From: SAR202 cluster bacterium
GTDB lineage: Bacteria > Chloroflexota > Dehalococcoidia > Lucifugimonadales > UBA2962
NCBI GenBank assembly: GCA_009392275.1
Contig: VFGV01000011.1
Location: 1-64,000 of the forward strand
Direction: 5' to 3'
DNA length: 64,000 nucleotides
Shown here: piece by piece, positions 30,370 to 44,330 of the stretch
How positions within the stretch are numbered: position 1 is the first letter of the stretch
How the letters are laid out: every line of letters starts with the position of its first letter
The notes under the pieces: model-generated
Told to the model about the DNA's origin: nothing
The model's input: only the letters and a program-made list of their open reading frames with translations
The model's database searches: none
Made by a program: the position numbers and the translations under genes

Positions 30370-31554
30370 CTAATCGATCATCTCGGATGAGGCGAGAATT
30401 CCGTCAGCTCCTATGCCGCCGAAAGTGACGATCCGACCATTTGACAGGAGCAAAGTGAAGTGGCGATAACGACCGATATTAAGGGAGCTGCTGGTGCTCC
30501 ACGTGCCGGCAACTGGATCGTAGATTTCGCTCTCTGCAATATTACCTAGTCCTCCGGTTACAAACACTCTTCCGTCTTGCAGAAGGGTGGCTTGATGCTC
30601 AGCTCTTGCAATCTCTGTCTCACCTGCGCTGGACCACGCATCGGCAACTGGATCATATAGTTCTGCGGTCATCTTCTTACCCCTGCCTCCTATGACCAGA
30701 ACCCGGCCGTCCTCCAATAACGTAGCTGTGTGGAAGGACCTAGAAACCGTCATTGGTGCCGCCTCAACCCAAGTGTCGGCGCTGGCGTCATAAATTTCCA
30801 CAGTCTTGGAATAAGGACCGTCTTCCTTGCCGCCACCAGTCACTAGAACCCTGCCGTCTGACAGCAAAGTAACGGTGTGATTGATCCGTTTTTCAGACAT
30901 TGGTGCCGCCTCAATCCAGGTGTCACTGCCGGCGTCATAAATCTCGCTTTTCTCAAGAGTACCGATCATTTTGCCGTCCATTTTGCCTCCGACTACCATT
31001 ACCCTGCCATCCGGCAGCCTGACAGCTCCCATACCATCACGGGTTCGAGCCATGGGCGAAACGGTCGTCCATGTACCTTGCGTTGGATCCCATATCTCTG
31101 CAGTGTCAGTCGTAAATTTAGTTGGCAACAGTCCGCCCGCCACCAACACGCGACCATCCTCTAACTCCACCATGGCAGGAGAGCGGCGACCCTCCGCCAT
31201 CGAACCAGTTGAGGCCCACTCGAGGGTCTCGGGGTCGAGGAGCTCTGCTGTCTCGTGCATGGTGGCAATCAAAGTGCCAATACCCAAGCCACGTCCCCCC
31301 ACAGCTAGCACCCTACCGTCGCTGAGCAAGAGGGCAGCATACCGCTCCCTCTTCGCCATCATGTCTGAAGAGGTGACGAATTCGCCTAGATCCATAGACA
31401 CATCAACAGCATCCTCAATGGGAGCCTCATCCTGAGCGGAAACGGAAGAATCTCCTCTTGGTTGCGCAGCATCAGAATCGGAGCTTGCGCTTTCAGAAGA
31501 GCAAGCTATCGCAAGTATTGTGATTAATAATCCTATTAGTATTGTCTTAAACAT
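30370..31554 (-). CDS. Kelch-repeat lipoprotein (1 of 3)
   Basis: Lipobox LAIACSS; repeated LxDGRVLVxGG blades. Confidence 0.88.
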   Translation of the reverse strand: MFKTILIGLLITILAIACSSESASSDSDAAQPRGDSSVSAQDEAPIEDAVDVSMDLGEFVTSSDMMAKRERYAALLLSDGRVLAVGGRGLGIGTLIATMHETAELLDPETLEWASTGSMAEGRRSPAMVELEDGRVLVAGGLLPTKFTTDTAEIWDPTQGTWTTVSPMARTRDGMGAVRLPDGRVMVVGGKMDGKMIGTLEKSEIYDAGSDTWIEAAPMSEKRINHTVTLLSDGRVLVTGGGKEDGPYSKTVEIYDASADTWVEAAPMTVSRSFHTATLLEDGRVLVIGGRGKKMTAELYDPVADAWSSAGETEIARAEHQATLLQDGRVFVTGGLGNIAESEIYDPVAGTWSTSSSLNIGRYRHFTLLLSNGRIVTFGGIGADGILASSEMID

Positions 31555-31863: not shown

Positions 31864-33012
31864 TTGAAGACTAATATTAGGAAATATGTTATGAATGCCA
31901 AGCAAATTAGAGACTTATACCCTATAACCAAAGACAGAGCGTACCTTTTTAGTGGCGGCCTGGCTCCAGTGTCCGTTCGTCATGAAAAAGCTATGAAAAA
32001 ACATATGGATTGGCTTTCAGAAGACCCAGATGACATGTACGTTAATGGCTTAGACGCTGACGCCTCGGATTGCCGTCGTATGTTCGCACAACTAACAGGG
32101 TGCGATGAAGGTGAAGTAGCTATTGTTGAAAGCACGTCTGCTGGATGTAATATAGCTTTTGATTTAATCGACCCTGTTGCTGGAGGCAATGTTGTTTTTG
32201 ATGACTTCTCCTATCCTTCTAGTGTTTTCCCATGGCATTTACCTCCACATGAGTCTTTAACTAAAAGATTTGTACATGCCAGAGAGGATGGAATTATCCA
32301 TTTGGAGGATTTTGAACAAAGCATCGATGAAAACACTGTGGCTGTCTGTATATCACACGTTACACCTATCGAAGGATTTAAGCAGGACATCAAGAAGGTT
32401 GCAGAAATAGCTCATGCAAAAGGAGCTTTAGTAATTGTAGATGGTGCCCAGTCCGCTGGGGCAATGGAGATAGACCTTCATGATACTGGGGTGGATTTTT
32501 TCGCCACCACTGCTATGAAATGGTTGCTTGGGGCGGCTGGAGTAGCGTTTTTGTATGTTGCTAAACGCCACCATAGTAAAAAACCTACGAGAGCCGGATA
32601 TGCAAGCACACACAGCTTCGATATACACGACTTCAGGCTGAAAGATAATGCGCAAAGATTTGAATTAGGCATGCCGAATTTGCTTGGATTAGCTTTCACT
32701 AAACCAGGCTTAGAAATCCTTTTAGAAACTGATATGAGTGTAGTTGAGCAACACAACTTAGAATTGAGCGGGTATGCAATTGCCGGCATGAAAGAATTAG
32801 GTATCGATGTGACTACCCATGATGATCCAAATTATAGATTAGGAGTGATTTCAGCTCGGCATGAAGCAGCATCAGGACTTTGGAAGCATTTACATAATAA
32901 TAAGGTTGATACCTACTATCACGGCGAAATATTTAGAGTAGATCCACATATTTTCAACGACCGAGATGATATAGATATGCTCTTAAAAGGGATAGATAGT
33001 TTCGTTCAGTAA
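31864..33012 (+). CDS. Class V aminotransferase-family PLP enzyme
   Basis: VIVDGAQSAGAMEIDLHDTGVDFFATTAMKWLLGAAGVAFLYV. Confidence 0.88.
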   Translation: MKTNIRKYVMNAKQIRDLYPITKDRAYLFSGGLAPVSVRHEKAMKKHMDWLSEDPDDMYVNGLDADASDCRRMFAQLTGCDEGEVAIVESTSAGCNIAFDLIDPVAGGNVVFDDFSYPSSVFPWHLPPHESLTKRFVHAREDGIIHLEDFEQSIDENTVAVCISHVTPIEGFKQDIKKVAEIAHAKGALVIVDGAQSAGAMEIDLHDTGVDFFATTAMKWLLGAAGVAFLYVAKRHHSKKPTRAGYASTHSFDIHDFRLKDNAQRFELGMPNLLGLAFTKPGLEILLETDMSVVEQHNLELSGYAIAGMKELGIDVTTHDDPNYRLGVISARHEAASGLWKHLHNNKVDTYYHGEIFRVDPHIFNDRDDIDMLLKGIDSFVQ

Positions 33013-33028
33013 TACTAATAATACGAAT

Positions 33029-34660
33029 ATGCTTCGGTTCTCTCACCAAATTATCGGTATTTCTAAATTTTTCAAACAAAAACCATTTTTGCTGGTTCTT
33101 TTGCCTGCAATCGTACTGCATTTAATTTTATCGTGCCTGTCGGTTGAATATTTAATTTCTGAGTTATTCTTAGTGGACGATGCTTTTTACTCAATGAAGA
33201 TAGCCCGGAATATTGCAGCAGGCCTTGGCACTACTTTTGATGGAATTCATCCCACTAACGGATTTCAGCCATTATGGGTATGGTTGCTTGTACCAGTCTA
33301 TTGGTTTGAGCCAGACAATTTATATGGACCTGTAAAAGCTAGTGTCGTAATTTTGTCTATATTTAACTTAGCAGCCGGATATGTTTTATACAGGCTTGTA
33401 TTGTCAATTACTAAGTTGCATGCTGCTGCCTTAGTTTCAGCCGCTGTGTGGCTCATAAATCCATACTTCGTTAAAAGGGTAATCAATGGTCTAGAATCAC
33501 CGATTGCAATTTTATTTCTTCTGGCTGTGTTGTTTATGTGGGTAGTGTCATTGGATTATGGCAAGACAAGGCAAGGCAAGCTGAAATGGGCTATTTTTGG
33601 AGTGCTAATAGGCCTATCAATGCTTTCTCGAGTAGACTCGATATTCTTAGTTGGGACGTGTTTTATTGTTGGTTTGATACTACAGAGAATACCAATGGAA
33701 TATTTACGTGGCTGGTTGATTGCAGGGGTGGTTGCCGGGATTGTACTTATTCCTTGGCTTGTGTTTAGTTTTGATGGTTTTGGCACGCCAATTCCGACAA
33801 GCGGTGGTGCAGTAAGACATTGGATAAGTTTTAGGTCCGGAGGAGACGGATCTGAGATTTTATTTTTTAGTGAGGAAGTCATAAGCCGATCCATCTTATC
33901 AGTGACAATGCTCGCATCAATCTGGGCCCAAACAGGGCTTTCTCTATCATTAGGAGCAATTTCAATTCTAGTAATATTGGTATTATTAATTGTTATCGTT
34001 GCCTTTGTGAGGCCTTTTAGGTCAGCAGTTTTAGCTTTGTATCAAGATAATCCAGGACTGCACTTGATATCATTTATCTTTTCATTGATTATCTTTTTGT
34101 TTTACACATTCTATTTGCCGGCACATTGGTATTTTGAAAGATACTTTTTGGCAATCTATATTATTTATGCTCTCTATATTGGCCTCTCTTACAGATTTTT
34201 TTGGCTCCAATTGGCTCAATCGTTAGGCAAGAAGTTTAATCGCCGCATAATGTTATTAACCACAATTCCATTACTGTTATTTGCTGTTTATATACCTGCG
34301 TGGTTGCCTGGTCATCAAGAAGATGGTTTTTATAGAGCCGGTATTTGGATAAACGAGAATTTACCTCAGGACGCTATAGTTGGATCTTACTTAGCCGGCA
34401 CTGTGGGGTATTTTTCTGAGAGAAAGCTAGTTGATTTAGATGGCAAAGTAAATCGTAATGCAGCAGAAGCCTTAATAGAAGCAAATATTGGTAATTACAT
34501 TCGGGAAAACGGAATCAACTTTGTAAGTGACTGGCCATCATATATTAAGGCTCTCGAATCAAGAGGAGGCTTGAATATAGACCAGGATCTTGAGAGTCCA
34601 GTTTATAAAGATTCAAGCCATCATGATTATTCTATTTATCAATTAAAAACAAATGATTAG
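33029..34660 (+). CDS. Multi-pass membrane glycosyltransferase (GT39/ArnT-like)
   Basis: LVDDAFYSMKIARNIAAGLGTTFDGIHPTNGFQPLWVWLL and many TM helices. Confidence 0.75.
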   Translation: MLRFSHQIIGISKFFKQKPFLLVLLPAIVLHLILSCLSVEYLISELFLVDDAFYSMKIARNIAAGLGTTFDGIHPTNGFQPLWVWLLVPVYWFEPDNLYGPVKASVVILSIFNLAAGYVLYRLVLSITKLHAAALVSAAVWLINPYFVKRVINGLESPIAILFLLAVLFMWVVSLDYGKTRQGKLKWAIFGVLIGLSMLSRVDSIFLVGTCFIVGLILQRIPMEYLRGWLIAGVVAGIVLIPWLVFSFDGFGTPIPTSGGAVRHWISFRSGGDGSEILFFSEEVISRSILSVTMLASIWAQTGLSLSLGAISILVILVLLIVIVAFVRPFRSAVLALYQDNPGLHLISFIFSLIIFLFYTFYLPAHWYFERYFLAIYIIYALYIGLSYRFFWLQLAQSLGKKFNRRIMLLTTIPLLLFAVYIPAWLPGHQEDGFYRAGIWINENLPQDAIVGSYLAGTVGYFSERKLVDLDGKVNRNAAEALIEANIGNYIRENGINFVSDWPSYIKALESRGGLNIDQDLESPVYKDSSHHDYSIYQLKTND

Positions 34661-34716: not shown

Positions 34717-34731
34717 TAAAATATATATATG
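34717..34731 (+). promoter_or_regulatory. Candidate leaderless promoter (-10 TAAAAT, N6, ATG)
   Basis: TAAAAT (34717-34722), 6 nt, ATG (34729-34731); no SD seen. Confidence 0.4.
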
Positions 34732-35649
34732 ACGCAAGTTATGACAGTTACAGGCCCTGTTGAAGCTAGCAATCTGGGGTTTACCTTGATGCACGAGCAT
34801 CTTCTTCTTGATTTATTAAAAGACAGCTGGTCTGTAAATAATCTTTTATATGAGCCGGAACTAGCTTATCTAGAGGTCATGAGATACAAAAATGCTGGGG
34901 GAGTGACCTTAGTTGATCAGACTAATCGTGGTTTGGGTCAAGATCCCGTGGCAGTAAAAAAGTTAGCTGAAAGAACTGGCCTTAATGTCATACTTGGCTG
35001 TGGATGGTATCGCGAACCTTACTATGAACAACATTTAAATTATTGGTATGTAGACCAGATAGCGGAGCAGATGATTTCTGATATTACTGAAGGGATCGAT
35101 GATTCGGGTGTCAAAGCAGGAATAATTGGGGAATTAGGAGCTCATGAAAAATGGGTGTCTCCAGTAGAAGAAAGAGTTTTGCGGGCTGGTGCTAGAGCTC
35201 ATCACATGACTGGCCTGACAATTGCAACTCACGGAACTAATAGTCCGGTAGCTTTAGATCAACTTGATATTTTGAAGGAAGAAAAAGTTGACTTAAATCG
35301 CGTTGTAGTCGGTCATTGCGGCAGCTGGCCATATCCTGAATTCCATGACGAGATAATAAAAAGGGGTGCTTGGCTTTCTTTCGATAATTTGTCTGACACT
35401 AACCCTTATGAGCTTAAGAAATGTTTGACTTTAATTAAGCATGCAATAAAAGAAGGAAATCTAGATCGAATTTTGCTTTCTCATGATGTCTGTTATCGCA
35501 CTCACTATGTGTCTTATGGTGGTTGTGGATATGATTTCATTTCAACTCGGTTATTTGAGCATTTAGCTGCTATTGGATTCACTGATGAAATGTTCCACCA
35601 GGTTATGGTCGATAACCCAATGAAAGCCCTTACAGGTGAACTATTTTGA
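34729..35649 (+). CDS. Phosphotriesterase-family protein, intact metal site
   Basis: TLMHEHLLLD, GIIGELGAHE, IATHGT, VVVGHCG, LLSHDVC. Confidence 0.9.
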   Translation: MTQVMTVTGPVEASNLGFTLMHEHLLLDLLKDSWSVNNLLYEPELAYLEVMRYKNAGGVTLVDQTNRGLGQDPVAVKKLAERTGLNVILGCGWYREPYYEQHLNYWYVDQIAEQMISDITEGIDDSGVKAGIIGELGAHEKWVSPVEERVLRAGARAHHMTGLTIATHGTNSPVALDQLDILKEEKVDLNRVVVGHCGSWPYPEFHDEIIKRGAWLSFDNLSDTNPYELKKCLTLIKHAIKEGNLDRILLSHDVCYRTHYVSYGGCGYDFISTRLFEHLAAIGFTDEMFHQVMVDNPMKALTGELF

Positions 35650-36560
35650 GCACCATTAATACGGTCACAGGTCCTATTCCTGCTAAAGATCTCGGTCTCA
35701 CACTTCCACATGAACATGTGTTTATAAATCACAAGAGAGACAATTGGATGGGTTCAAACGTTTTGGATGATCCTGTTCTGGCTGAGCAAGAATTAATTAA
35801 ATTTAAGGATTTGGGCGGTAAGACTATAGTAGATCAAACATCTCGCGGCGTTAATAGAAATTTAAATTTATTGAAAAAGCTGTCAGAAAAAACGGGAATA
35901 AACATCATAACTGGTACAGGTTGGTTCAAAGAAGCTTACTACGATTTGGATTTTGTAAAAACTAAGGTGGATCAATTAACTTCAATAATGGTTTCAGATT
36001 TAACTAAAGGAATTGATGATTCTGGAATTAAAGCAGGCATTATCGGAGAAATAAACGTTAATGCTAGGTGGGTGACACCTTCAGAGGAAAGGATGCATCG
36101 AGCAGCAGCTAGGACTCAAAGAAAAACTGGCATAACTTTGGCCATTGCTGGTACCCATTTATCTACTGCCAATGATCAGCTCGATATATTAGAAGATGAA
36201 GGAGCCGACCTCAGAAAGGTTATAGTTAATCATATTAACGGCAGCTTTGATAATGAGTTTTGCGCTAGCGTAATTTCGAGAGGAACTTTTATCTGTTTAA
36301 ATACTTTTCCTGTTAATTCTAAAGATTTAATGAGAAGACATGTATCAATGTGTATGGACCTGATCAATCAAGGCTTAATTAATCAAATCTTAATCTCTAA
36401 TGGAGTTTCAATAAAAAATCATTTAACTGCTTACGGAGGCGGGGGATATGCATTTGTTATTTCTGAACTACGTGAACAGTTAATAGCTAGAGGAATGACT
36501 CATGATGATTGGAATGAAATTATGCTCCTAAACCCATCAAGGTGTTTTAGCGTTGAATAG
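35646..36560 (+). CDS. Phosphotriesterase-family paralog with degraded metal site
   Basis: HEHVFIN and GIIGE retained; ATHG becomes AIAG and SHDV becomes SNGV. TTG start overlaps the upstream TGA. Confidence 0.85.
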   Translation: MSTINTVTGPIPAKDLGLTLPHEHVFINHKRDNWMGSNVLDDPVLAEQELIKFKDLGGKTIVDQTSRGVNRNLNLLKKLSEKTGINIITGTGWFKEAYYDLDFVKTKVDQLTSIMVSDLTKGIDDSGIKAGIIGEINVNARWVTPSEERMHRAAARTQRKTGITLAIAGTHLSTANDQLDILEDEGADLRKVIVNHINGSFDNEFCASVISRGTFICLNTFPVNSKDLMRRHVSMCMDLINQGLINQILISNGVSIKNHLTAYGGGGYAFVISELREQLIARGMTHDDWNEIMLLNPSRCFSVE

Positions 36561-37488
36561 GAATTTACAACAAACATCCGTGATGACGGTAACTGGATCT
36601 ATTTCTCCTGAAGAGATTGGATTTGCTTTGATTCACGAACATGTTTTCCTTTCTATTCTTGCTGACTATCTTGATACGAATAGAGTTCTTGATGACCCTG
36701 AATCTGCTTATATTGAATTAATGCATTATCAAAAATCAGGCGGAGTTACCTTGGTAGATCAAACAAATCGTGGATTAGAGCAGGATCCAATTGCGGTACG
36801 CGAAATTGCAAAAAGGACGGGTCTAAATATTGTGTTAGGTTGTGGATGGTACAGAGAGCCGTTCTATGATCCGAGCCTATATCGCACTAAAACTAACGAC
36901 ATTGCTGACCAAATGATTAGAGACCTCAATGAAGGAATAGATAAGACTGGCGTTAGAGCCGGGATTATCGGGGAGTTAGGAGCACATGAAACTTGGGTTT
37001 CTCCTGTGGAGGAACGTGTATTAAGGGCTGGTGCTAGAGCACATCTGGAGACAGGAGTAACAATAGCTACACATGGTTTGTTTGCCCCTGTGGGGCTCAA
37101 GCAGATAGATATTTTACTTGAGGAAGGAGTTAATCCTGATAGGGTCATTGTAGGACATGCTCATGATTATCCATATCATGACTATCATATTGAAATTGCA
37201 AAAAGAGGAGCATTCGTATCATTCGATGGCATGCAAGACGAGAATCAATTTCTCCTCCAAAGAGACCTTATGAATATTAAAAAAATTATTCAGGCTGGAT
37301 TTATAGATAAATTATTGCTTTCACATGACGTATGCACAAATTCTCATTACGCAATGAATGGTGGTTTTGGATATAATTTTATTATAAGCAGGCTTTATCC
37401 GTACTTACAAGAAATTGGGTTAAGTAAAGAGCAGTTTCATAAAATAATGGTAGAGAATCCCCGTAATGCACTTACTGGAGGAAATTAA
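36553..37488 (+). CDS. Phosphotriesterase-family protein, intact metal site
   Basis: ALIHEHVFLS, GIIGELGAHE, IATHGL, VIVGHAHD, LLSHDVC; ATG 36583 is an alternative start. Confidence 0.9.
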   Translation: MNRNLQQTSVMTVTGSISPEEIGFALIHEHVFLSILADYLDTNRVLDDPESAYIELMHYQKSGGVTLVDQTNRGLEQDPIAVREIAKRTGLNIVLGCGWYREPFYDPSLYRTKTNDIADQMIRDLNEGIDKTGVRAGIIGELGAHETWVSPVEERVLRAGARAHLETGVTIATHGLFAPVGLKQIDILLEEGVNPDRVIVGHAHDYPYHDYHIEIAKRGAFVSFDGMQDENQFLLQRDLMNIKKIIQAGFIDKLLLSHDVCTNSHYAMNGGFGYNFIISRLYPYLQEIGLSKEQFHKIMVENPRNALTGGN

Positions 37489-37489
37489 T

Positions 37490-38827
37490 TTGAGAATTAA
37501 GTATATAGTTCGATCCATACTAATCATCCATTTTATTTGCCTTTTTGGATTTATTTTAGGTTGTTCAGTTGAAACCAGTAACTACATAGAGGCATCAAGT
37601 TCTTTGGCTATGGATTTCACTGTTGTGCCAGCGAAAACACCATTACCTACTCCTACCTCCACCCCCGACCCAGAAAAGGAAGCTGAAGACGACCTTGGTA
37701 TAAGTCTAGAGCCAGGATGGGAGTTAATGGGGGAGCTGGAATTTGGTAGATGGGGTCATACAGCAACACTATTACAAAATGATGCACTTCTAATAGTGGG
37801 AGGAAGGAAAAGACTGAGTTTTAGGCGAGCCTCAGTTGTTAATGGTGAAATTCTTCCATTGGGTAGTAATGAATGGGTAAAAACGAGCAGATTTAATTGG
37901 GAAAGGACATTTCACACAGCATCTTTATTGCCTGATGGAAGAGTATTAGTGGCTGGAGGAACTGGAAGAGCAGTATTAAAGGAAGGTGAAGAAGAACCAC
38001 TGTTTAGGGGAAATAAAGATTTAAATAGTGCTGAGATATATGACCCTAAAAGTGATGAATGGCAAAGTGTTGCGGATATGAACTACAAGCGACAACTAGG
38101 ACAGGCAATAACCTTACCCGATGGTAGGGTCATGGTTATTGGTGGCAGATCAGGAGTTGAAACGCTTAGCTCTTCGGAAGTTTACAATATGGAAGACAAT
38201 ATTTGGTTAGAAGCTGAGCCAATGATACAGCAAAGGATGTCTCATTCAGCAATTAAATTGTCCGATAATAGGGTATTAGTCACTGGTGGCATGTCATCTG
38301 TAACAATGGGAGATACTTTAGGTTCTGCTGAGATATATGACCCGATTGAAAATTCATGGACCATGGTTGCCAGTCTTTATCGCGCACGTTTAGGGCACAG
38401 CTCTATATTATTGCCTGACGGTAGGGTGTTAGTTACCGGAGGCACTACTACCGAGACTGAAGATTTACTAGGCCCTGAAACAACGGCAGAAATTTATGAC
38501 CCAATTGGTGATAAATGGACTTTGGTTTCAACTGATCTTTTTGCTCGAAAAGACCATTCTTCAGTGTTTATACCTGAGGGTTTTAGAGGTGGCAAGGTAA
38601 TTTTGATTGGCGGAGCTGACCCCGCAGGAGCAGGCGTGTTGGCAGTAGAGTCGTATGATATCTTAAATAATGAGTGGTCAGTAATTAGCACCTTGCCTGA
38701 AGGAAGAAACTTAACTACAGCGACTCGATTAAAGGATGGATCTGTAATGGTTGTGGGCGGAGGACAGGTAAAGGGATATATTGCTGAATTTCCTGACTAC
38801 ACTCTGAAATTTAGTATTACGAATTAA
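37490..38827 (+). CDS. Kelch-repeat lipoprotein (2 of 3)
   Basis: Lipobox FILGCS; DGRVLVAGG/DGRVLVTGG blades; TTG start behind GGAGG inside the end of PTE3. Confidence 0.85.
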   Translation: MRIKYIVRSILIIHFICLFGFILGCSVETSNYIEASSSLAMDFTVVPAKTPLPTPTSTPDPEKEAEDDLGISLEPGWELMGELEFGRWGHTATLLQNDALLIVGGRKRLSFRRASVVNGEILPLGSNEWVKTSRFNWERTFHTASLLPDGRVLVAGGTGRAVLKEGEEEPLFRGNKDLNSAEIYDPKSDEWQSVADMNYKRQLGQAITLPDGRVMVIGGRSGVETLSSSEVYNMEDNIWLEAEPMIQQRMSHSAIKLSDNRVLVTGGMSSVTMGDTLGSAEIYDPIENSWTMVASLYRARLGHSSILLPDGRVLVTGGTTTETEDLLGPETTAEIYDPIGDKWTLVSTDLFARKDHSSVFIPEGFRGGKVILIGGADPAGAGVLAVESYDILNNEWSVISTLPEGRNLTTATRLKDGSVMVVGGGQVKGYIAEFPDYTLKFSITN

Positions 38828-42985: not shown

Positions 42986-43121
42986 CCTAATACCTAAGGT
43001 TTTCGGAAAATTATTATTAAAATCAATTAATTGCTAGAATGTTCTGGAAATTGATAAGTTGACAAGGCATTGAAAGATCATTTGCTGAATCTATGAAATT
43101 CATTTGATTGGAGAAATTAAA

Positions 43122-44330
43122 ATGATTACTAGGAATCGAATACATGTTTTATTTATAAGTTGTGTGTCGTTGTTTATTGTTTTCATTCTTGGGTGTTCGG
43201 CTGATGGTGAGTCGAACGACTTAACCGAAGCGACATCATCGCAAGATACACAATCAAACATAAACTCAGAAGGTGACCAAGCTAAGCCATTAGGTTCCGG
43301 AAAGTTTAGTGACACAGCGAAAATGGCTTACGCGCGTGGTTGGCATGTTACCGTAAAGTTAAATGACGGCAGAGTAATCAGTATGGCTGGTAAAAGTAGA
43401 GGTGGGGCCTCAGCTTGGGAACCGTCTGGAATAGCAGATTCGGAGTTTTATGATCCAAATACGGGCAAATGGTCTGAAGCTCCCTTGATGCGCGATATAA
43501 GAGAGGTCCCCAGTGGCAACTTATTACAAGACGGACGGGTCATAATTATTGGAGGTGCCGCTGTAAGACAAAAACCTCAAACTACTGTTGAGATTTTTGA
43601 TCCTAATTCGAATAGCTGGACAGTTGCAGCAGAAATGACTACTCCAAGATGGAGGCATAGATCAGTTGTTTTAAATGATGGCAGGGTATTAGTCGTTGCT
43701 GGAGAGAGAGAAGACACAATATTAGTGCCCGAAGCTGAGATTTATGACCCCGAGACGAATACTTGGTCTGATGCAGGTTCATTGCAGGTTAAACGTGCGA
43801 TGCATACGTTGACATTATTAAATGATGGGCGAGCATTAGTCGTTGGAGGAGGAGGCCGAGATTCAAAAACAAAAGTAGTAGAAATCTATGATCCTGAGCA
43901 AAACACATGGACTTTGGGGGCAGAAACTAACGTATCGCATTCGGCGCATACAGCTACTTTATTAAGCGATGGCAGAGTTCTGGTTACAGGAGGCAAAGGC
44001 AAAGTAGCTAAAGGTGAAGTATATGACCCTGAAGCAGACACTTGGACCGATGTAGGAGAAATGACTGAGTGGCGGGCTGAGCACGCAGCTATTTTACTGG
44101 CTGATGGCAGAGTTTTAGTTACGGGTGGGATCGGCAAGGTAGATTCCACCGATATATTTGACCCAAAAACTAATACTTTTAGCCCGGGGCCAAAAAGCTT
44201 GGTAGCAAGGTATGCTCATACTATGACATTATTAGATGATGGTCGAATATTGATAGTAGGTGGCAATTCAACAGATGTAGAAAGTGGTGATAGGGCTATT
44301 ACTACAGAAGTTGAAATCTGGACGCCTTGA
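43122..44330 (+). CDS. Kelch-repeat lipoprotein (3 of 3)
   Basis: Lipobox FILGCS; LNDGRVLVVAG / LSDGRVLVTGG / LADGRVLVTGG blades; GGAGA SD before ATG 43122. Confidence 0.88.
   Translation: MITRNRIHVLFISCVSLFIVFILGCSADGESNDLTEATSSQDTQSNINSEGDQAKPLGSGKFSDTAKMAYARGWHVTVKLNDGRVISMAGKSRGGASAWEPSGIADSEFYDPNTGKWSEAPLMRDIREVPSGNLLQDGRVIIIGGAAVRQKPQTTVEIFDPNSNSWTVAAEMTTPRWRHRSVVLNDGRVLVVAGEREDTILVPEAEIYDPETNTWSDAGSLQVKRAMHTLTLLNDGRALVVGGGGRDSKTKVVEIYDPEQNTWTLGAETNVSHSAHTATLLSDGRVLVTGGKGKVAKGEVYDPEADTWTDVGEMTEWRAEHAAILLADGRVLVTGGIGKVDSTDIFDPKTNTFSPGPKSLVARYAHTMTLLDDGRILIVGGNSTDVESGDRAITTEVEIWTP

Follow-up and report, generated by a model that had tools for sequence, protein, structure and literature searches.

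A 64,000-nt stretch of DNA (the window; contig VFGV01000011.1, positions 1 to 64,000) comes from a 1.53-Mb metagenome-assembled genome (MAG) of SAR202 (Chloroflexota), whose genus consists of ocean bacteria not yet cultured. It carries three consecutive phosphotriesterase (PTE)-family genes, here called PTE1, PTE2 and PTE3, followed directly by a gene for a kelch-repeat lipoprotein. PTE2 has lost metal ligands that both neighbours keep, and its pocket has been rebuilt. The explanation we favour, though tentatively and with slightly less than even confidence, is a coupled operon encoding two active enzymes, PTE1 and PTE3, and a pocket-remodelled, non-hydrolytic PTE2 that serves as their partner or as a binding or regulatory subunit.

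We scored the metal-ligand positions equivalent to 55, 57, 169, 201, 230 and 301 of P. diminuta PTE, using a reference sequence whose six ligands landed in the expected columns. The genus sample comprised five MAGs (the source genome and four congeners, G001–G004), and the wider sample 250 genomes of the order. All five PTE2 orthologs read HHEAHG at these positions, versus HHEHHD in 76 other SAR202 PTE-family proteins; the single further deviating protein in the sample is a copy in genome G159, described below. PTE1 and PTE3 have the motifs HEH, GE, ATHG, VGH and SHDV, and PTE2 has HEH, GE, AIAG, VNH and SNGV. The equivalents of His201 and Asp301 are Ala168 and Gly253 in PTE2, which retains those of His55, His57, the bridging acid (Glu135) and His230. 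These differences were noted in the initial annotation, and the alignment confirms them in every ortholog. The binuclear site (HxH, Lys/Glu, His, His, Asp) is complete in PTE1 and PTE3 but not in PTE2. Because five MAGs agree and the 76 other proteins are intact, we rejected chance and assembly or sequencing error as the source of the loss. Judged from its motifs, PTE2 is a phosphotriesterase-family protein by descent, not one to be classed as a phosphotriesterase-type enzyme.

Eleven replacements in PTE2 (Y94F, R95K, I111L, G137N, S144T, V150M, T167I, H168A, R191K, D253G and C255S) are fixed in 5/5 orthologs at columns where the other members of the PHP-like clade are conserved to 90% or more. 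This clade of shorter proteins includes the trio; many other PTE paralogs of the source genome form a longer subfamily. We defined the pocket as the ligand columns ±2 together with the classical substrate-pocket positions. Of the 14 such conserved columns that fall in it, 7 were changed and refixed, versus 4 of 52 elsewhere; the p-values (0.0009, or 0.005 with a residue list) are indicative only, as the list was compiled from background information on P. diminuta PTE and the ligand-window rule was set after the first result was known. The same 14 columns are unchanged in PTE1 and in PTE3 (0/14 each). Across the PTE2 orthologs, 94% of the pocket is invariant, versus 65% of the rest of the protein, and PTE2-specific asparagines occupy residues 28, 139, 219 and 252, where Asp or His prevails elsewhere. 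PTE2 had been described as metal-site-degraded; the ligand loss stands, but plain degradation does not, the pattern of columns indicating a pocket that is remodelled, not eroded. Because the pocket was rebuilt and then frozen, a binding role suits PTE2 better than that of a bare scaffold. Such a pattern is expected of a new binding role, and would fit a binding partner or a new non-hydrolytic enzyme alike.

Selection on the trio was estimated from pairwise comparisons (NG86). dN/dS was 0.07–0.13 for PTE2, 0.055–0.088 for PTE1 and 0.046–0.077 for PTE3, values that are rough because dS exceeds 1 in many pairs. Ortholog identities were 75–94% for PTE2, 85–95% for PTE1 and 83–97% for PTE3. PTE2 is under purifying selection, slightly less constrained than its neighbours, and contains no stops; the low dN/dS and the lack of stops argue that it is not decaying. 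With catalytic residues gone in all five orthologs under such selection, PTE2 has the hallmarks of a pseudoenzyme. The earlier proposal that a pseudoenzyme is kept between two intact paralogs is borne out, PTE2 being neither absent nor decaying in the congeners. We regard it as highly improbable that PTE2 is a decaying duplicate in the course of being lost: it does evolve a bit faster than PTE1 and PTE3, and G159 offers a real example of lineage-singular decay, but PTE2 is retained in five of five genomes with dN/dS near 0.1, and its pocket is its most conserved part. Unless selection changed very recently, these data contradict decay in this genus.

The G159 copy belongs to the PHP-like PTEs (L093:6971-7885; C33) and lacks the equivalents of the bridging Glu and His201. 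It shares 65% identity with the intact copy that follows it (locus L093:6971-9060), with an intergenic gap between the two, and no such deficient copy was seen in the short upstream stretch of G154 and G157. It looks like a recent duplicate decaying in a single lineage, and not like support for retention of the PTE2 type. We rejected it as a second PTE2-like case because it is a recent duplicate, found in one genome and separated by a gap.

In the tree, PTE1 and PTE3 are sisters (support 96/87), and PTE2 is placed outside them, a position that may reflect long-branch error; a clade of the trio is not rejected (approximately unbiased test, p=0.122). The PTE2 stem measures 1.33 changes per column, versus 0.41 and 0.53 for PTE1 and PTE3, and is followed by a compact crown. 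A tandem triplication in the ancestor of the genus may have given rise to the trio.

The gene order PTE1-PTE2-PTE3-kelch, whose conservation the initial annotation had proposed to check, is kept in all five genus genomes, inside a longer syntenic block. The features of the source locus are as follows.

31864–33012, + strand: class-V pyridoxal phosphate (PLP)-dependent enzyme (Aminotran_5; Pfam PF00266, 4e-37)
33029–34660, + strand: membrane glycosyltransferase-like gene (PMT_2, weak; Pfam PF13231, 3e-6)
34729–35649, + strand: PTE1, intact PHP-like phosphotriesterase-family protein (HHEHHD); ATG start; PF02126, 4e-64
35646–36560, + strand: PTE2, metal-ligand-deficient paralog (HHEAHG) with refixed pocket; TTG start; PF02126
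36553–37488, + strand: PTE3, intact PHP-like paralog; TTG start; PF02126, 1e-60
37478–37483, + strand: Shine–Dalgarno (SD)-like GGAGGA of the kelch gene, within the 3' end of PTE3, from the sequence and the junctions in relatives
37490–38827, + strand: kelch-repeat lipoprotein gene; TTG start; Kelch Pfam matches and lipobox

PTE1 and PTE2 overlap by 4 nt and PTE2 and PTE3 by 8 nt, and both overlaps (-4 and -8) are identical in 5/5 genomes. The TTG start of the kelch gene lies 1 nt past the PTE3 stop, with GGAGG within the final PTE3 codons; an alternative start is the ATG at 37466. These coordinates agree with the earlier description of overlapping or abutting PTE genes and a kelch SD inside PTE3. 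They do not agree with its mention of fusion to the kelch gene, since the genes adjoin or overlap and none is fused. All three PTEs match Pfam PF02126 (E 9e-56 to 4e-64), with full-length scores of 217, 190 and 206 bits for PTE1, PTE2 and PTE3 against a cut-off of 22.4. In G002–G004 the PLP enzyme gene lies directly 5' of PTE1; the PMT_2-like gene separates the two only in the source genome and G001 and is lineage-specific.

Among proteins of solved structure, the E. coli phosphotriesterase homology protein (PHP, or YhfV; PDB 1bf6/4lef) is the closest full-length relative of PTE1 (E 4e-48) and ranks second for PTE2. It is equal to them in length, without the insertion seen in longer, PTER-like proteins, and likewise has a Glu at the position of the carboxylated Lys. 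Yet the trio falls short of the NF007373 equivalog cut-off of 486 bits (PTE1 187, PTE2 151, PTE3 181), and PTE2, unlike PHP, is two metal ligands short of the six typical of the family. The AlphaFold2 model of PTE2 is a TIM barrel (pLDDT 82, pTM 0.86) whose PDB matches are PTE-family proteins, with 3k2g at the top and E. coli PHP (TM 0.87–0.91) among them. The PTER or resiniferatoxin-binding PTE-related proteins (PDB 3k2g, 9efa) share the Pfam family with the trio; they differ in that PTER is an active metal-dependent hydrolase and in lying outside the shorter PHP-like clade. Mammalian PTER hydrolyses N-acetyltaurine (PMC11374699). A disordered loop in PTE2 was considered as a sign of a PTE2-specific interface and rejected, because the PTE1 model (pLDDT 86) has much the same low-confidence loops.

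In our favoured explanation, the three genes, which encode PHP-like phosphotriesterase-family proteins of the amidohydrolase superfamily, would form one translationally coupled operon, with PTE1 and PTE3 acting as binuclear-metal hydrolases. PTE2 would be a non-hydrolytic pseudoenzyme that keeps the TIM barrel and ligand pocket, its metal and acid–base residues having been replaced (H201 by Ala, D301 by Gly, and Asp or His by Asn at several positions of the pocket). It would most likely bind substrate, product or effector, and would act as partner or regulatory subunit of PTE1, PTE3 or both. The data directly show the conserved gene order and overlaps, the lost ligands, the purifying selection and a pocket that changed and was then conserved; the loss of hydrolysis, the binding of a ligand and the assembly with PTE1/PTE3 are things we infer. 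The long PTE2 stem with its compact crown, the confident barrel model and the precedents described below also speak for this explanation.

Several observations weigh against this explanation. PTE2 occurs in one genus only; the sample of 250 genomes of the order yielded none outside it. The G004 copy begins with TTA (L042:2336, record QGNM01000054), with no canonical start close by, where the others have TTG or GTG; this reflects either a sequencing error or an unusual start. Tandem arrays of PTE genes with no dead copy are common (e.g. three intact genes in G005, L081), so that adjacency of PTE genes does not imply a complex. Finally, His29 and His171 are conserved in 5/5 PTE2 orthologs, are specific to PTE2 and are possible extra ligands. 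PTE2 may retain one metal via His22, His24, Glu135 and His196, with His29 or His171 added.

PTE2 might even still be a hydrolase, holding one metal on those four residues, with His171 or His29 as a relocated fifth ligand, and using another residue as base. It does keep four of the six ligands, in addition to the two conserved histidines. But the strand-8 Asp, invariant in the 76 intact members sampled, is Gly in PTE2, the adjoining His is Asn, and in the PTE2 model the PTE2-specific conserved acids D102, D227 and D288 lie away from the strand ends. We consider continued hydrolysis quite unlikely. A search for alternative ligands, suggested at the outset as a way to overturn the loss of the site, thus yielded two conserved candidates, neither of which replaces Asp301.

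A more substantial alternative, which we take to be a real if not the likeliest possibility, is that PTE2 acts independently, as a ligand-binding, sensor or chaperone-like pseudoenzyme or as a new non-hydrolytic enzyme, and is merely co-expressed with PTE1 and PTE3 without assembling with them. Refixation of the pocket is what a new ligand or reaction would lead one to expect, and the tandem intact genes elsewhere show that adjacency needs no complex. Independence is disfavoured by the overlap coupling to both neighbours in all five genomes and by the fact that active/dead pairs recur in the phylum.

These pairs involve a different family. In G036 and G050, two Amidohydro_2 genes, overlapping or abutting, lie directly 5' of the PLP enzyme and PTE genes; one is intact (HHHHD), and the other has all five ligands replaced (e.g. 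NANER), with FDANMALG versus FDFHVHAG and GSRFP versus GSDMP in its motifs. Of the order's 250 genomes, 18 carry the dead type, and these span 13 family groups; it also occurs in another Chloroflexota group at 56–59% identity. Where sequence suffices (~30 loci), the dead copy almost always lies immediately upstream of the intact one (L044:12072-13617, L043:3668-5276 and about 28 more, L096–L136); no intact partner was seen at L097/L137, L098/L138 or L113, and neither gene of the pair was found in the source genome. As with PTE2, a dead copy is coupled to an intact one, and in two families the pair directly adjoins the same two genes, for the PLP enzyme and a PHP-like PTE. The pair differs from PTE2 in belonging to PF04909, in having lost all five metal ligands and in being widespread, versus one genus. 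The existence of an independent, broader active/metal-dead pair in the same phylum raises the prior for a PTE partnership and is no proof of it.

Kinases and dihydroorotase provide well-known cases in which a pseudoenzyme regulates an active partner or completes it. In P. aeruginosa, an inactive pseudo-dihydroorotase chain of the amidohydrolase superfamily is reported to be needed for the activity of its partner enzyme, aspartate transcarbamoylase (PMC7053772). There the partner comes from another family, whereas the presumed partners of PTE2 are close paralogs. Calling the locus as a whole an undescribed system was therefore too strong: inactive amidohydrolase-superfamily partners are a known principle, and tandem PTE genes are ordinary here, the source genome alone having 17 PF02126 matches. 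The literature searched held no joint mention of phosphotriesterase and pseudoenzyme, which is weak evidence of novelty. It would be a rather unlikely outcome, in our estimate, for PTE2 to be the first described phosphotriesterase-family pseudoenzyme, joined to both active paralogs in an obligate hetero-oligomer, and one case of a Chloroflexota design of active/metal-dead amidohydrolase pairs of which Amidohydro_2 is the widespread form. If that pair design is real, some amidohydrolase paralogs counted in SAR202 would be subunits and not added substrate specificities, and the tally of what these abundant ocean bacteria can catabolise would change. Phosphotriesterases and their paralog expansion go unmentioned in the main text of the SAR202 pangenome paper (PMC6946804). 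Genomes of 1.4–2.3 Mb (G000, G005, G030, G044) carry 15–20 PTE-family genes.

Beyond the genus, the PLP enzyme is the ancestral neighbour of the PTE genes, and together with a PHP-like PTE it makes up an older SAR202 module. The PLP subfamily, delimited at 46% identity or more, is found in 11 of the 250 genomes, 10 of which also carry a PHP-like PTE, itself placed by tree in 18 of 250 (Fisher p 7e-8 with the source genus collapsed to one and deeper relatedness ignored). The two genes adjoin in the genus, in G036 and in G050, and are 1–5 kb apart in G046 and G135, from two more families. Genes near the homologous cluster in relatives encode a Cu amine oxidase, an SDR, a GFO/IDH/MocA protein and an AstE/AspA-type deacylase. 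Because the PLP enzyme is linked, and amine oxidase and acyl-amino-acid hydrolase genes lie near the cluster in relatives, the substrate might, as a weak guess, be a nitrogen-containing amide- or lactone-like compound destined for catabolism. A link between the trio and taurine/cysteate metabolism was rejected, as the D-cysteine desulfhydrase-like neighbour and a thiamine pyrophosphate enzyme score far below the CuyA/Xsc cut-offs.

The kelch protein has matches to Pfam Kelch_4/6/1 and a lipobox in 5/5 orthologs (ILGC or IAGC in four, MLGC in G003), so that its export signal makes it unlikely as a subunit; the PTEs begin straight at catalytic-domain sequence. It had been cast as an exported partner. 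The export signal and the conserved linkage hold up, but partnership does not follow from genomic linkage in a genome with about 18–20 kelch genes in 1.53 Mb. That it is a functional partner of the PTEs, e.g. one that senses or captures their substrate at the cell surface, could be combined with any explanation of PTE2, and strikes us as unlikely. The kelch gene does lie directly 3' of PTE3, with its SD inside PTE3, in all five genomes. But the lipoprotein signal sets it apart from the PTEs, ~0.45 adjacent PTE–kelch pairs are expected by chance, and no kelch gene lies beside the homologous PTE cluster in other families. The window contains three kelch lipoprotein-like genes, at 30370–31554, 37490–38827 and 43104–44330.

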